Shown piece by piece: positions 52,443-60,091 of a stretch of DNA of 64,000 nucleotides (its first letter is position 1; the number at the start of each line of letters is the position of its first letter). The stretch spans positions 496,001 through 560,000 of the forward strand of contig CACNEF010000001.1 of NCBI GenBank assembly GCA_902619485.1, read 5' to 3'. The notes beneath the pieces are model-generated. The model was not told the DNA's origin, did no database searches, and saw nothing but the letters and a program-made list of their open reading frames with translations. A program made the position numbers and the translations under genes. The DNA is from an uncultured SAR116 cluster alpha proteobacterium. Its GTDB lineage: Bacteria; Pseudomonadota; Alphaproteobacteria; Puniceispirillales; Marisalimonadaceae.

Positions 52443-53246
52443 TTATTCTAAATCTTCTTGCTTAGGAATGGCTACACTATGTAATCCACCATCCACGTGA
52501 TGAACGTTCCCTGTAACACCTGACGATAATTCAGAAGTTAAGTATAATGCAGCGTTACCAACTTCATTTAATTGTGGATTAAATTTAAGAGGTGCTACAT
52601 CTTCTGAATACCTAAATACATGTCTAGCTCCCGAAATGGCAGCGCCAGCCAGGGTTTTTACTGGGCCTGCAGATAGTGCATTCACTCTAATGTTATTTTT
52701 ACCTAAATCCATAGCTAAATATTTTATTGAAGCTTCTAATGCGGATTTTGCAACACCCATTACATTATAATTAGGTGTAGTTCTTTCTGCGCCAAGGTAA
52801 GATAGTGTCAATAGACTACCACCTTTTAAAGACATTAGAGGTAAAGATGATTTTGCAATTCTTGTAAAACTGAACGCAGAAATATCAAGGGAATTTAAAA
52901 AATTTTCTCGACTACAATTAACATACTTTCCTTTTAATTCCTCTTTATCAGAATATGCAAGAGCATGAACGACAAAGTCAATTTCATCCCAAACTTTAGT
53001 AAGTTTTTCAAACATATTTTCAATAGAATTTAATTCACCTGAAGGCTTAGAAACATCACATTCATAATAGTTGACTGATTTTATGGTGTTCATTAATGGT
53101 ATTAGTCTTTTCTTAAAATCTTCGTTTTGATATGAAAAAGCTAGTTGAGCACCGTTTTCAGATAATGCTTTTGCAATACCCCAAGCTATTGAACGTTCAT
53201 TTGCCACGCCCATTATTAGACCTTTTTTACCATTCATAATAGACAT
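52443..53246 (-). CDS. fabI: Enoyl-ACP reductase
   Basis: GLIMGVANERSIAWGIAKAL, YLGAERTTPNYNVMGVAKSALEASIKYLA. Confidence 0.97.
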   Translation of the reverse strand: MSIMNGKKGLIMGVANERSIAWGIAKALSENGAQLAFSYQNEDFKKRLIPLMNTIKSVNYYECDVSKPSGELNSIENMFEKLTKVWDEIDFVVHALAYSDKEELKGKYVNCSRENFLNSLDISAFSFTRIAKSSLPLMSLKGGSLLTLSYLGAERTTPNYNVMGVAKSALEASIKYLAMDLGKNNIRVNALSAGPVKTLAGAAISGARHVFRYSEDVAPLKFNPQLNEVGNAALYLTSELSSGVTGNVHHVDGGLHSVAIPKQEDLE

Positions 53247-53257
53247 AGTATTTTCTC

Positions 53258-54487
53258 TTAATTAAATTTACTAAAAGCAAGGCAGGCATTTGTTCCACCA
53301 AAGCCAAACGAATTAGATAATGCCAAATTTATCTCTATATCTTCTATTGTATTTCTTGGTATTTCAATAGATCCAATTTCTGGATCATCGTCATTTATAT
53401 TGGACGAACCAGATATAAAATTATTGTTCATCATAATTAAGGTATAGATAGCCTCGTGAACACCTGTCGCTCCTAGAGAATGACCTGTTATAGACTTTGT
53501 GCTTGTTAGTTTTGGAAGATAGTCTTTATCTTTAAAGACCTCTCTTATGGCATGAAGTTCTTGCATGTCTCCTACAGGTGTACTAGTTCCATGGGCATTT
53601 ATATAATCTACTTTTTCATTTATACCACTGATAGCTTCGTTCATACATCTTATTGCACCTTCACCGCTTGGTGCAACCATATCATGGCCATCTGAATTAG
53701 CACAATGTCCAACAATTTCACCATATATTTTCGCACCTCTAGCTTTTGCGTGTTCAAGCTCCTCTAGAACAAGCATACCTCCACCACCAGCTATAACAAA
53801 ACCATCTCGATTTATATCATAAGGTCTTGAAGCTAACTCTGGTGTTTCATTATACTTGCTAGACATGGCTCCCATTGCGTCAAAAAGGACAGATAGTGTC
53901 CAGTCTAATTCCTCGCCACCACCTGCAAAAACTATATTTTGATTACCATATCTAATTTGATCTGCACCTATACCTATACAATGAGCCGAAGTAGAACAAG
54001 CAGATGTTATAGAGAAATTAACACCTTTTATTTTAAAAAAAGTTGCAATACATGCTGATACAGTTGAGCTCATACATCTTGGAACCATGAAAGGACCAAC
54101 TCTTTTTGGTCCTTTTTCCCTGGCAATATCAAACGATTGCAGCATATTAGCAGTGCTAGGACCTCCTGATCCTGCAATCAGGCCTGTTTTGGGATTAGAA
54201 ACTTCTTCAGGAGTCAATCCTGAGTCTTTGATCGCCTGTTCCATAGAAAGTACTGAATAAGCTGCACCTGCACCCATAAACCTAAGTTGTTTTTTGTCAA
54301 CATGATCCTCAAGATTTAGCTTTACTTTACCGTGTATTTGACTTCTAAAGCCCATTTCTTTGTAAGTATCAGATTTAACAATTCCTGACTTTTGTCTAAT
54401 TAGGGAATTTTTAACCTCTTCTATATTATTCCCTATAGAACTTACAATTCCCATCCCTGTAATAACCACTCTTTTTTTACCAGTCAT
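53258..54487 (-). CDS. fabB: Beta-ketoacyl-ACP synthase I
   Basis: [47 protein letters not shown]. Confidence 0.97.
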
Positions 54488-54513
54488 CTCTAATCCTGTT
54501 AACTAAGTATTAA

Positions 54514-55020
54514 TTAATCTTGAAAAAGCCCAACTCTAATATCAGATGCTTCAAAAACTAATTTATCATCACAGATAACTTTACCATCAGCAATTCCAAG
54601 AATTAATTTCCTCATAATAATACGTTTAAAATCAAGTAAATATTCTACCTTTTTAGCTATGGGCAATATTTGACCAGTAAATTTTACTTCTCCAACTGAT
54701 ATAGCCCTTCCTTTTCCTCTTCCACCCATATTGCCTAAAGAAAAACCTAGTAGTTGCCATAATGCATCCATTCCTAGACATCCGGGCATAACAGGATCAC
54801 TTTCAAAGTGACAAGGAAAAAACCATTTATCAGGTGTAATTTTAAATTGAGCATGTGCCGTGCCTTTGTTGTAAGCACCGCCAGTTTCTTTGATGCTTGT
54901 TACCTCATCAAACATCAGCATAGGAGGCAAAGGTAATTTGGGAAAATCTACTCCAGCAAGCTTTCCTTTTGCACAGTCAATCAATTCTTGATAATTAAAT
55001 GAATCTTTAAATAAAGCCAA
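54514..55020 (-). CDS. fabA: 3-hydroxydecanoyl-ACP dehydratase
   Basis: FFPCHFESDPVMPGCLGMDALWQLLGF. Confidence 0.97.
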   Translation of the reverse strand: MALFKDSFNYQELIDCAKGKLAGVDFPKLPLPPMLMFDEVTSIKETGGAYNKGTAHAQFKITPDKWFFPCHFESDPVMPGCLGMDALWQLLGFSLGNMGGRGKGRAISVGEVKFTGQILPIAKKVEYLLDFKRIIMRKLILGIADGKVICDDKLVFEASDIRVGLFQD

Positions 55021-55091
55021 TATTAGTACCTTTAAAACAATTAATTACATTATGTAAAATATAAAATACAACAATTTAAAGAATTATAAAA

Positions 55092-55652
55092 TTAATTTTT
55101 TGTTGAACCCCAAAAGGTCTCTTTTTGAACCCAACCTATAAATTTATTTTTCTTAACTATCTCAACCTTACACCATTTTTTTTTACATTTTTTTATATTA
55201 ATTAATAAATTAGGCAAAAGTTTGGCTAAAGAATTACTCGAATTAGAAGGTATTTTTTTTAAAAAAGTAGTTTTTGTAATTAATCCAGTTCTTTGTGAAG
55301 ACAATAATTGAGTATGTACCCATCCTGAGGTTTTATTATATGTTACTACTTTTCTCCAATTGTTGAATTCAGCCACAACTTGTAAAGGATATCCTTTTTG
55401 TTTTAGTTCGAATTTTACTGGGAACTCTTTTCCTGGCCCAGTTCTCATGTAAGTTAATGAATTTTTTAATGAAACCATTCTAGGTATTTTTAAACCACTC
55501 CCATTAATTGATTCTTTGAGCTCTTTTGTGTTTGAATAAGCGTTTTCTGAAGATATGACAAAATTAATTATCATAAAAATTGCAGCATATATAATTATTT
55601 TACAGTTAAAAATATAAATATTCATGGTATTTAGTCTGAACACACAGGACAT
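55092..55652 (-). CDS. SH3-domain protein (bacterial SH3_3/4-like), secreted or membrane-anchored
   Basis: Hydrophobic N-terminus, SLKNSLTYMRTGPGKEFPVKFELKQKGYPLQVVAEFNNWRKV. Confidence 0.85.
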   Translation of the reverse strand: MSCVFRLNTMNIYIFNCKIIIYAAIFMIINFVISSENAYSNTKELKESINGSGLKIPRMVSLKNSLTYMRTGPGKEFPVKFELKQKGYPLQVVAEFNNWRKVVTYNKTSGWVHTQLLSSQRTGLITKTTFLKKIPSNSSNSLAKLLPNLLINIKKCKKKWCKVEIVKKNKFIGWVQKETFWGSTKN

Positions 55653-56380
55653 TGGTTATTTTTTATAAGTTTGATTTTATCTAGATTTAGAGTTAACCCA
55701 TCATATAAAAATAAATTTCCTGCTGTAGATTGATAATTTTTAAAAGCTATTTCTTTTATGGCCTCATTAACTTGCATACTTCCAATTAAGCCTGTCACTG
55801 GTCCAATTATTCCAGCCTCTCTGCAATTAGTAATTGGAGCTTTTTCATTAGTTCTTGGAAAAATACATTCATAACAAGGGTAATTTTTGTTTAATCCACT
55901 TTTCCAAATGGCTAATTGACCTTCCATTTGTACAGCAGAGCCAGAAATTAAAATTTTTTTGCACTTGTGTGATAAAAAATTTAAAATATACTTAGTTTCG
56001 GAATTGTCACAACAATCAAAAATCAAATCAAAATTACTAACATCTATTGATTCATCAAAAAGTATTTTTTTGGAAGTAATTGAAATATTTGGATTTATTT
56101 TGAGACACTCTTGTACTAAATTTTCAGCTTTACTATTTCCTATGTGATTATTTTTATGAGCGATTTGTCTGTTTAGGTTACTAATTTCAACAATATCTTG
56201 ATCGTAAATCTCTATATGTCCAAACCCTGCTGCAGAAGCGTAAAGTGCAACTGGACAACCTAAACCACCAGCTCCAACAATTAAACAATTGGTGTTAAGT
56301 AATCTTTCTTGACCTTCCTCATCAAAGTTAGGAATGATTACCTGTCTTGCATATCTATTAAGATCGTCATCATTAAGCAT
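55631..56380 (-). CDS. HesA/MoeB/ThiF family adenylyltransferase
   Basis: RYARQVIIPNFDEEGQERLLNTNCLIVGAGGLGCPVALYASAAGFG; CYECIFP and CPVC zinc cysteines. Confidence 0.93.
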   Translation of the reverse strand: MLNDDDLNRYARQVIIPNFDEEGQERLLNTNCLIVGAGGLGCPVALYASAAGFGHIEIYDQDIVEISNLNRQIAHKNNHIGNSKAENLVQECLKINPNISITSKKILFDESIDVSNFDLIFDCCDNSETKYILNFLSHKCKKILISGSAVQMEGQLAIWKSGLNKNYPCYECIFPRTNEKAPITNCREAGIIGPVTGLIGSMQVNEAIKEIAFKNYQSTAGNLFLYDGLTLNLDKIKLIKNNQCPVCSD

Positions 56381-57818
56381 TTACAGCTCTTTTGTTGTAA
56401 TTAATTAAAAGATCGTTAATTCTATTAGCTAAATGGTAAGCCACAGATTTCTTACTTTGTTTTTCCCATTGCTCATAATTATTTTTATAAATAAGAAATA
56501 CTTTATTAAACTCTTCCCCAAAAACTTTATTATTGCTGACATCATTAGCAATTATTAAATCAACATTTTTTGATATTAATTTAGAATAGGAATTATCTTT
56601 GATATTACTTGTTTCTGCTGAAAATCCAATTACGATCTTCGGTCTTAACTTGCTTTTAGAAATTGTTTCTAAAATATCTGGGTTTTTTATGGTTTCGAAT
56701 AGCAATTTTTCTTTGGTTTTTTTAATTTTATTATTTGTGTCAATTTTATTATTTGATGATGTTTTGGGTATTAATCTCCAATCTGCTACTGCTGCACAAC
56801 AAATTAAAATATCAGCAGGGAGTTGTTGAGTTACGTTATCTAACATTTCCTGAGCAGTTTTAACTTTTATTACATTATGACAATTCGGAAAAGGAATACT
56901 TACAGGTCCACTAATCAGAGTTACTTTTGCTCCTCTTTTTGTCAATTCAGAAGTAATTTCAAAACCTTGTTTCCCAGATGATTTATTGCTTACAAACCTT
57001 ATTGGGTCAATTGCCTCTACCGTAGGCCCTGCTGTTATTATAACTGAAATATCTTGAAATTGATTAGAAAGTTTTTGTTTTTCCCTCATGTATGAAATGA
57101 TAAACCCAAATATTTCTCTCGGCTCTGGAAATCTTCCTTTTCCGCTCTCGCCACACGCCATATCTCCTGTATCTGGCTCTATAAATTCTATACCTCTTTC
57201 TAATAGTTTTTTGTAATTGTCGCGTGTTGCCAAGTTATTCCACATAACAGGGTTCATTGAAGGAGCCATAATTATTTTTGAGAAAGAAGCAAGCAAAATA
57301 GTACTTGCTAAATCATCAGCTATTCCATTCGCGAGTTTTGCCATTATATTTGCAGTTGCGGGAGCAACTAAAATTATATCTGGGCTTCTAGCTAAGTTTA
57401 TATGATTCATTTTTGTCTCGTCTTCAATAGAAAATAAATCAATATAACATTTTTTCTCATTTAAGCTTGTTACTAACAAAGGTGTGATAAATTTCTGAGC
57501 TGATTTAGTCATAACAACGTCAAGCTCAATGTCAGTTTTCTTAATCAATCTAATTATTTCAAGAGATTTATATGATGCTATACCTCCACTAATAATTAAC
57601 AAAATTTTAAATTTAAAATCATGCAATTTTTGTGTCGGTAAAAAATGTTCAATGTTTATATCTAGATATGAACTCAGTTCTAAAACATCTTTATGTTTAG
57701 TGCTTGGTATTTTATTAAGCTTTTTCCAATTTGAAATTGCAGAGGGTTTGATTTTTAATTTTTCTGCGACAGCACCTGTTCCACCAAGTAAAGAAATAAG
57801 TTGAGAGATTTTATTCAT
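56373..57818 (-). CDS. coaBC: CoaBC (phosphopantothenoylcysteine decarboxylase/phosphopantothenate-cysteine ligase) with N-terminal HTH domain
   Basis: Residues from ATG 57818: MNKISQLISLLGGTGAVAEKLKIKPSAISNWKKLNKIPSTKHKDVLELSSYLDINIEHFL (Cro/YdaS-like HTH), then FKILLIISGGIASYKSLEIIRLIKK (CoaC) and ITAGPTVEAIDPIRFVSNKSSGKQG (CoaB) without a stop. Confidence 0.93.
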   Translation of the reverse strand: MNKISQLISLLGGTGAVAEKLKIKPSAISNWKKLNKIPSTKHKDVLELSSYLDINIEHFLPTQKLHDFKFKILLIISGGIASYKSLEIIRLIKKTDIELDVVMTKSAQKFITPLLVTSLNEKKCYIDLFSIEDETKMNHINLARSPDIILVAPATANIMAKLANGIADDLASTILLASFSKIIMAPSMNPVMWNNLATRDNYKKLLERGIEFIEPDTGDMACGESGKGRFPEPREIFGFIISYMREKQKLSNQFQDISVIITAGPTVEAIDPIRFVSNKSSGKQGFEITSELTKRGAKVTLISGPVSIPFPNCHNVIKVKTAQEMLDNVTQQLPADILICCAAVADWRLIPKTSSNNKIDTNNKIKKTKEKLLFETIKNPDILETISKSKLRPKIVIGFSAETSNIKDNSYSKLISKNVDLIIANDVSNNKVFGEEFNKVFLIYKNNYEQWEKQSKKSVAYHLANRINDLLINYNKRAVNA

Positions 57819-57886
57819 GAGCAAAACTACATAATTATAATAATAAACTACAATAACTGAAAAATATGAAAAATAAATGAAATTTT
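57819..57886 (-). promoter_or_regulatory. Candidate promoter and operator of HTH-coaBC
   Basis: Minus-strand TATAAT (57839-57834) flanked by exact direct repeats TGTAGTTT at 57852-57845 and 57831-57824, start-to-start 21 bp. Confidence 0.4.
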
Positions 57887-59335
57887 TCATTTATTTGATA
57901 AAATTTCATCAATTTTCCTAATTATTTCAGGGATTTTCAGTAAAGCTAGTTTGTTTTTATGAAACCATTCTTCTAAGACTTTAAATGGGTCGTGTGTATC
58001 AGTAATCCATTTATGTATTAATGGTCTGGACAATTCCCACATATTTATATCTGGATTTATTTGTCTAGTTGTTCCTTCAGCCATTAACATATTTTTTTGT
58101 AATAGTGTAAATTGTGGTTGCACTTCAATGTTAAAATTTTTTGATAAATTCAGTATTTGACCTAGCAATTTAGCTAAAGAAACTTCACCAATAGGTTTAT
58201 TTAAAATAGGTGTAGAAATTGCTCTTATTGCTTGAGAGAGATGATCGTGGCAAATATCTTTACCTAACATATTTGCTTCATCATGTATTTCAACAACTTT
58301 CTTATAATTTTTATTTAAAAGATAAGTAAGTAATAATGCTAGAAATTGCCTGTCATTATTTGATAGTCTGCCCATGATACCAAAATCAATAGGTACCAGT
58401 GCTCCTTCCTTATCAATTAGAATATTTCCGGGATGCATATCCCCATGAAAGAAACCATCACGAAAAACCTGGAGGAAGAAAACTTCTGTGCCTATTTCTG
58501 TTAAATTTTTAATATTATGTTTAGAGGCCTTGAGGGATTCTAAATCATCAATTCTAATCCCATCTATAAATTCCAGAACAAGCATATTTTTAGTTGTAAA
58601 CTCCCAGTAAACTTTGGGAACTCTATAATTATGATGATCTTTGAAATTTTCAGCAAGTTCATCCGCTGCAGAAGCTTCTAATGTTAAATCAAGCTCATTC
58701 AAAGAAACTTCTGATAATACCTCTACATTTTTTGGAAGCTTGAGTCTTTTTATAGTTGGAATACAAAATTCTAAAAACTTGGTAATCCAATAAAAAAAAG
58801 TGAAGTCTCTAAACAATTCTTTATGTATATTTGGCTTTAATATTTTTATCGCTACTTTTTTTCCATTTTTTAGGATTCCTGTGTGGACTTGAGCAACAGA
58901 CGCGCTTGCGATAGGATTATCTTCAAAGAAAGCTAAAGTTTCTTGAAGAAACTTTTGATTTTCATCCTGAATAATTTTTCTCGAAATAGAATTTGAAAAA
59001 GGTTTTAATTTACCTTGTAATATTTTAAGTTCATCACATGTTTTTTTTCCAAGAATATCAGGTCTTGTTGACAAAGCCTGTCCAAATTTTATATATCCAG
59101 GCCCCAAGTTGATTAAAACATTTGAAAGATTTTTTCCAATTTCTTTTTGATTGTTATTTCCAAAAATAAAATTTAAAATTTTTAAAATTAATTCTATTTG
59201 TTTATTAAAATATTTGTTTTCAATTAGAAGAGCTAAAATGCCAGTTCTAATTACTTTAATAAATACTAAAAAACTTTTGATTAAAAAATATGGTATTTTC
59301 CATACTGGGTATTCTAGCTTTTTTTTAATCTTCAT
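57887..59335 (-). CDS. ubiB: UbiB/ABC1-family ubiquinone biosynthesis protein
   Basis: KFGQALSTRPDILG, ASASVAQVHTG, FFHGDMHPGNILID. Confidence 0.96.
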   Translation of the reverse strand: MKIKKKLEYPVWKIPYFLIKSFLVFIKVIRTGILALLIENKYFNKQIELILKILNFIFGNNNQKEIGKNLSNVLINLGPGYIKFGQALSTRPDILGKKTCDELKILQGKLKPFSNSISRKIIQDENQKFLQETLAFFEDNPIASASVAQVHTGILKNGKKVAIKILKPNIHKELFRDFTFFYWITKFLEFCIPTIKRLKLPKNVEVLSEVSLNELDLTLEASAADELAENFKDHHNYRVPKVYWEFTTKNMLVLEFIDGIRIDDLESLKASKHNIKNLTEIGTEVFFLQVFRDGFFHGDMHPGNILIDKEGALVPIDFGIMGRLSNNDRQFLALLLTYLLNKNYKKVVEIHDEANMLGKDICHDHLSQAIRAISTPILNKPIGEVSLAKLLGQILNLSKNFNIEVQPQFTLLQKNMLMAEGTTRQINPDINMWELSRPLIHKWITDTHDPFKVLEEWFHKNKLALLKIPEIIRKIDEILSNK

Positions 59336-60091
59336 TTAGATTTTCCAGCCACTATGTAAGGCAACTATACCGTTTGATAAGTTTCTGCACTTTACTCTAG
59401 AAAATCCAGCTTGAGAAAACATTTGAGTGAGCTCAGCTTGAGTAGGGAATTTTCTTATAGACTCAACTAAATATCTGTAAGCTTCCTTGTTGCCAGTAAC
59501 TTTATCTCCTATTAATGGCATAATTTTAAAAGACCATAAATCGTAAAATTTCTTTAGGAAATCATTTTCTACATGGCTAAATTCTAAACATATAAATCTT
59601 CCACCAGGCTTTAGAATACGGTAAATTTCTTTTAATGATTTATTTCTATCTGTAATATTTCTTAAACCAAAACTGATGGTCGCTCTTTCAAATGAATTAT
59701 CTGAAGCTGGAATATCCTCTGCACTTGCAATAGTCCACTCTAAATTTCGAATATTTTTGTACTTTTTTCTACTTACTTCTATCATTTTTTTATTTATATC
59801 AAAAATGTGAGCTGAGTTACCTCCTGCATTTATAAATTTATTAGCGATATCACCTGTCCCTCCAGCAATATCGGCCAAATTTTGATTACCTTGAGGAGCT
59901 AACCAATTAATTAAATTATTTTTCCAACTTCTATGAATACCTAAACTTGTTATATCATTCATAAGGTCGTATTTGCCAGCAACTGAATCGAATACATAAT
60001 TAACTAATTTTTGTTTATCATTTTTTTTTACCGACTTGTAACCAAAGTCAACATTATTTTGATTTTCACGTACCATCATTAACCTAGACAA
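59336..60091 (-). CDS. ubiE: Ubiquinone/menaquinone C-methyltransferase
   Basis: YDLMNDITSLGIHRSWKN, LADIAGGTGDIA, FGLRNITDRNKSLKEIYRILKPGGRF. Confidence 0.97.
   Translation of the reverse strand: MSRLMMVRENQNNVDFGYKSVKKNDKQKLVNYVFDSVAGKYDLMNDITSLGIHRSWKNNLINWLAPQGNQNLADIAGGTGDIANKFINAGGNSAHIFDINKKMIEVSRKKYKNIRNLEWTIASAEDIPASDNSFERATISFGLRNITDRNKSLKEIYRILKPGGRFICLEFSHVENDFLKKFYDLWSFKIMPLIGDKVTGNKEAYRYLVESIRKFPTQAELTQMFSQAGFSRVKCRNLSNGIVALHSGWKI

Follow-up and report, generated by a model that had tools for sequence, protein, structure and literature searches.

Enzymes that are also repressors, or trigger enzymes, are an established principle, known from BirA, PutA and NadR. SAR116 bacteria abound in the ocean and have reduced genomes and few regulators; how CoA synthesis is controlled at the level of transcription is, to our knowledge, poorly known. 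Described CoaBC proteins (TIGR00521; structure 6TGV) consist of a full CoaC-CoaB with catalytic motifs; that in 6TGV starts at CoaC and has no helix-turn-helix (HTH). Mycobacterial CoaBC is a dodecamer built around a CoaC core, with CoaB at its periphery; CoA and acyl-CoAs inhibit it (PMC7794376). The closest DNA-binding relatives of the domain described here are the prophage repressors of the Cro/YdaS type (Xfaso 1 Cro, 3bd1; P22 Cro, 1rzs; N15 Cro, 6on0; YdaS), which are free-standing proteins of 60-100 aa; YdaS, from the same superfamily, binds specific operators in E. coli (PMC8630535).

We analyzed a 64,000-nucleotide stretch of a SAR116 contig (the window), in which an HTH of this fold and recognition-helix type is joined to the essential enzyme CoaBC. 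Comparison with related genomes leads us to regard this protein as probably both an active CoA enzyme and a DNA-binding protein that controls its own gene.

The HTH-CoaBC protein and its distribution

The open frame 57818..56373 (minus strand), with its ATG at 57818, encodes 481 aa arranged as a Cro-fold HTH, a disordered linker, a complete CoaC and a complete CoaB.

56373..57818, minus strand: HTH-CoaBC fusion (open frame, NCBIfam; start kept across the genus)
57666..57818, minus strand: Cro/YdaS-type HTH, residues 1-51, with helices 3-10, 14-21, 25-34 and 39-51 (NF046037 above cut-off; AF2; Foldseek; PDB profile matches)
57717..57746, minus strand: predicted recognition helix, residues 25-34, PSAISNWKKL (AF2 helix 3; mean identity 85% in the genus)
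57609..57665, minus strand: variable linker, residues 52-70 (low pLDDT around residues 61-70; identity of residues 42-70, 47%)
57084..57608, minus strand: CoaC (flavoprotein decarboxylase) domain, residues 71-245 (PF02441; APSMNPVMW and ACGESGKGR motifs)
56418..57050, minus strand: CoaB (ligase) domain, residues 257-467 (PF04127; AAVADW and KIKK motifs)

The enzyme portion belongs to CoaBC by the NCBIfam model TIGR00521 (residues 71-467, 396 bits against a cut-off of 220), and its decarboxylase and ligase motifs were found intact. At the N-terminus, residues 4-50 fall within the NCBIfam family NF046037, 'carph-isopro' (40.1 bits, or 44.8 for the isolated N-terminus, against a cut-off of 38). 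The Pfam models YdaS_toxin (PF15943) and P22_Cro (PF14549) cover the same stretch below the gathering cut-off of 30 (23 bits; 27 for the isolated domain), and on these scores the HTH is a relative of both families without being filed as a member. A profile of the domain matched Xfaso 1 Cro (E 3e-15) and P22 Cro (E 2e-7) among PDB entries; the SAISNW core of the former is identical to that of the window's HTH. AlphaFold modeled the HTH as four helices at a pLDDT of ~90 and both CoaC and CoaB as folded domains, with low confidence for the linker near residues 61-70. The best Foldseek match of the HTH model was again Xfaso 1 Cro (probability 1.00, TM 0.67/0.72, with a weak E of 0.025), so that the predicted fold is a helical HTH matching a solved Cro. 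The first-pass annotation had read a Cro/YdaS-type HTH and a complete CoaC-CoaB in a single frame from ATG 57818; the profile models, predicted structure and intact motifs bear this out.

That annotation also considered a start at an in-frame TTG at 57626, which would yield a free-standing CoaBC and leave the upstream stretch as a separate or untranslated HTH. The codon does exist in the window, at residue 65. It recurs, however, in just 3 of 29 species of the genus, 7 of the 29 congeners lack any start codon between residue 36 and CoaC, and no stop codon separates HTH from CoaC in any species examined. Translation from ATG 57818 is thus the rule, and we give the shorter product almost no credence.

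For comparison we distinguished the window's own genus (f1) from three other families of the order (f2-f4). All 28 congeners with a full-length match align from residue 1 or 2, and the HTH was present in every full-length CoaBC of the SAR116 order that we examined, in all four families. In f2-f4, it was seen wherever the contig reached the N-terminus; an apparent loss in two f2 genomes (G058, G060) was dismissed, as their contigs stop inside the gene. Elsewhere in Alphaproteobacteria, 30 of 30 CoaBCs lacked the HTH and started 1-7 residues before CoaC. Together with 6TGV, these agree with the earlier statement that an ordinary CoaBC starts at the decarboxylase domain, and on this sample the fusion is confined, within the class, to this order.

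Mean identity across the genus was nearly the same for the HTH core (81%) and CoaC (83%), the linker region was not conserved like the HTH core, and the recognition helix was the best-conserved portion of the N-terminus. For the HTH, dN was well below dS across the genus, indicating purifying selection. From the conserved start, the HTH core identity and the low dN, we conclude that the fusion is real, translated as a single protein and maintained. These data also bear on a neutral origin, in which a captured prophage cro-like gene is read through in frame and has no regulatory role. The domain does resemble prophage Cro/YdaS proteins and, outside the class, is commonly free-standing; yet selection on the HTH, its retention across four families and the conserved palindrome that accompanies it (below) make such an origin very improbable.

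A candidate operator in the ubiB-coaBC spacer

In the window, coaBC follows ubiE and ubiB on the minus strand, and ubiB adjoins it throughout the genus.

59336..60091, minus strand: ubiE (ubiE/menG-type methyltransferase), first gene of the run (open reading frames; neighbourhood comparison)
57887..59335, minus strand: ubiB, upstream gene (conserved neighbour)
57875-57892, no strand assigned: candidate operator, 18-bp palindrome AAATGAAATTTTTCATTT, overlapping the ubiB stop codon (one in the window against 0.02 expected)
57857..57881, minus strand: phased TTCA(T/G) repeats at 57881-57877, 57870-57866 and 57861-57857, possible extra half-sites (spacer alignments)
57834..57863, minus strand: promoter-like TTTTCA-18-TATAAT just downstream of the palindrome (consensus scan alone)
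55631..56380, minus strand: ThiF/MoeB-like gene overlapping the coaBC end, which could be co-controlled (assigned by sequence reading)

The palindrome, AAATGAA-N4-TTCATTT (AAATGAAWWWWTTCATTT), has perfect arms and lies 57-74 bp before the coaBC ATG, in a spacer that measures 53-76 bp across the genus. It was found at coaBC in 25 of 29 congener genomes, with 66-76 bases from start codon to far palindrome end, and a reversed control pattern had no matches across the same 29 genomes. The palindrome is absent from two deep species (G029, G030) and altered in two more (G014, G034). Its conservation is partly coding, since the left half overlaps the end and stop codon of ubiB. The consensus promoter scan of the spacer did not rise above the level of shuffles.

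In the window's genome, the sole exact 18-bp site is that at coaBC, so that an exact-site search gave no sign of a pantothenate/CoA regulon. Six congener genomes each had one extra match to the pattern. We rejected these as operators: the five of six examined all mark the start of one orthologous small open reading frame (ATGAAATTTTTCATTT, MKFFI...) and are, on this reading, a coding coincidence.

The f2-f4 families carry a different palindrome, TTCACA-N3/4-TGTGAA (TTCACAAAATGTGAA). A scan of 24 whole genomes gave 16 occurrences, of which 13 lie immediately ahead of coaBC, and a control pattern had no match in these genomes. Against 300 dinucleotide shuffles, 7 of 13 f2-f4 loci exceeded all, two more stood at 0.003 and 0.013, and four were unremarkable; four f4 coaBC loci had half-sites only. 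At the 30 CoaBC loci of the class without the HTH, the TTCACA palindrome was absent throughout (0/30). Separately, three f3 genomes (L274, L287, L288) each contain one extra TTCACA-N3-TGTGAA between tpsB-like (ShlB/FhaC) and tpsA-like (hemagglutinin) genes.

The same HTH on other enzymes

We searched for the domain in ~390 genomes of the class and 400 of the phylum, naming partner enzymes by curated models. A profile search of the window's genome found the CoaBC copy alone, ruling out repetition of the domain on its other proteins. Beyond Alphaproteobacteria, nearly all matches were short free-standing proteins. Within the class, the domain sits at the N-terminus of HisZ, PDH E1 alpha (PdhA), ArgB, PyrB, GlmU, Nnr, biotin carboxylase, SerA and CarA, with ArgH, pyruvate kinase and a TorD-like chaperone as further carriers; LeuA carries it in non-alpha genomes. 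Each fusion occurs in particular lineages (L091-L107, L035, L057, L257-L260, L267-L269). The name 'carph-isopro' is evidently contracted from carbamoyl-phosphate synthase and isopropylmalate synthase, and both presumed name-giving enzymes, CarA and LeuA, thus reappear in our survey. In a domain tree of only 62 columns, which bears on whether f1 and f2-f4 gained the HTH once or twice, the f2-f4 CoaBC HTHs grouped with that of HisZ.

Many HTH-enzyme genes have a strong inverted repeat just upstream. For HTH-hisZ this is TTCATA-N3-TATGAA (TTCATATTATATGAA, TTCATATWATATGAA): all six exact genome-wide occurrences in 10 genomes precede HTH-hisZ, with zero control matches. HTH-carA has TGGGAA-N5-TTCCCA in 4 of 6 genomes, a pattern found elsewhere too. 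Palindromes were likewise seen at HTH-nnr (AATTCCACAAG-N5-CTTGTGGAATT), HTH-pyrB (AAATTGCG-N5-CGCAATTT) and HTH-argH (AACGTATT-N-AATACGTT), and none was seen upstream of HTH-serA and one HTH-nnr.

Recognition helices and half-sites tend to vary together. The unrelated enzymes f2-f4 CoaBC and HisZ have a near-identical recognition helix, SA[VI]SNY (SAVSNYR in HisZ), and their palindromes have the outer TTCA and a mostly 6-3-6 layout in common, differing in one half-site base. A TTVQGW helix goes with ACGTA half-sites in both HTH-ArgH and HTH-Nnr (family f99), and CarA differs in helix and palindrome alike. This correlation is in keeping with a site that is read by the HTH. The f1 CoaBC helix, SAISNW[KR], represents a third arrangement, in which TTCA polarity is reversed relative to f2-f4. 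A single polarity rule for all CoaBC therefore fails, and the shared-half-site argument carries over only imperfectly to the window's genus, where the putative HTH-site link draws on conservation and position instead.

Several further proteins broaden the picture. Mic60/mitofilin-like membrane proteins of many Alphaproteobacteria (L033, L034, L043, L058, L108, L110), so named from one Mitofilin model match, have the same HTH at their cytoplasmic N-terminus. TorD/DmsD-like chaperones from several alphaproteobacterial families (L262-L264, L270) have an N-terminal YdaS domain, which exceeds the Pfam cut-off in L263. One genome (G074) has the domain three times: GlmU and Nnr each carry it, and the third copy is a short frame that stands alone (L104, L105, L148). 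In one ArgB (L266, G808) and a prephenate dehydratase PheA (L272, G122), the N-terminal domain is instead of XRE/HTH_3 type, with a palindrome ATAATATAC...GTATATTAT upstream of this ArgB; the two cases suggest convergent fusions of enzymes with other HTH families. An HsdM (L109) has an ordinary XRE domain, and we treated it as a separate matter.

The Mic60-like genes mostly lack a strong palindrome upstream. They lend some weight to another interpretation, namely that the HTH is a protein-protein or oligomerization module that has lost DNA binding, the palindromes belonging to another regulator, which could in principle own them. Enzyme families may likewise have recruited the HTH for contacts. 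The palindromes, however, follow the HTH fusion rather than the enzyme, being absent from all 30 plain CoaBC loci; similar recognition helices pair with similar half-sites on unrelated enzymes; and the recognition helix is the very part of the N-terminus that is conserved best. We therefore consider a pure contact module unlikely, though less so than a neutral fusion.

Proposed autogenous control and known precedents

Our preferred reading remains that HTH-CoaBC is an enzyme and a regulator of its own gene. Enzyme and DNA-binding domain are joined in one polypeptide, and comparative evidence places a specific, conserved site at the gene itself. In the mechanism that we propose, the flexible linker would hang the Cro-type domain from the CoaC/CoaB oligomer, so that many HTHs are presented, and the domain would recognize the palindrome in the ubiB-coaBC spacer; we infer this binding from the comparisons above. 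Bound there, CoaBC would most likely repress a promoter inside the ubiE-ubiB-coaBC run, and its abundance would set coaBC transcription. Occupancy by substrate or CoA thioesters possibly does so too; this role for ligands is the weakest step, although the inhibition of the mycobacterial enzyme by CoA and acyl-CoAs makes coupling of DNA binding to CoA status plausible. Genes 3' of coaBC could also be affected: downstream on the same strand, window positions 52443-56380 hold ThiF/MoeB-like, SH3-like, fabA-, fabB- and fabI-like genes, and control from the coaBC spacer might thereby reach fatty-acid synthesis.

Its occurrence on many unrelated enzymes, often with a site of their own, makes the HTH look like a portable part for own-gene control. 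In this broader scheme, one Cro-type HTH would have been grafted repeatedly onto unrelated, mostly feedback-controlled biosynthetic enzymes (CoaBC, HisZ, CarA, PyrB, ArgB, ArgH, LeuA, SerA and others). Each such enzyme would thereby act as a repressor with one target, its own gene, through a palindrome of its own, and the ligands that it binds would set transcription. We regard the chances for and against this generalization as evenly balanced. The earlier proposal of a bifunctional enzyme and DNA-binding regulator has thus gained from the conserved own-gene palindrome, from the lack of HTH and TTCACA palindrome in all 30 plain CoaBCs and from the palindromes at other HTH enzymes; the architecture is not an isolated one, because an NCBI domain family already covers the HTH. 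The proposal's link from substrate (4'-phosphopantothenate), FMN or CTP occupancy to transcription is conjectural.

A literature search, with most subscription journals outside its scope, returned no paper on the domain by name, the CoaBC fusion or its sites; a full-text search for 'carph-isopro' gave no paper, and nothing relevant was found on HisZ or Mic60 with a helix-turn-helix within the same scope limit. The NF046037 model names the domain, and we did not find function, operator or CoaBC fusion described. Already known, then, are the HTH domain and the enzyme-repressor principle; new are the CoaBC case with its candidate operator and the finding that many enzymes have apparently reused a single HTH. 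If true, the circuit at coaBC would be a minimal feedback loop of one gene, one protein and one site. Since a dozen other enzymes share the domain and have palindromes to match, these would, if our reading is right, form a natural set of enzyme-repressors, with a testable recognition code and a modular design for metabolite-responsive switches. Like BirA, PutA and NadR, HTH-CoaBC joins an enzyme and a DNA-binding domain in one polypeptide that is expected to regulate its own pathway. Each of those precedents is a single enzyme family, whereas the single Cro-type HTH described here occurs on many unrelated enzymes, with local sites and putative ligand control.
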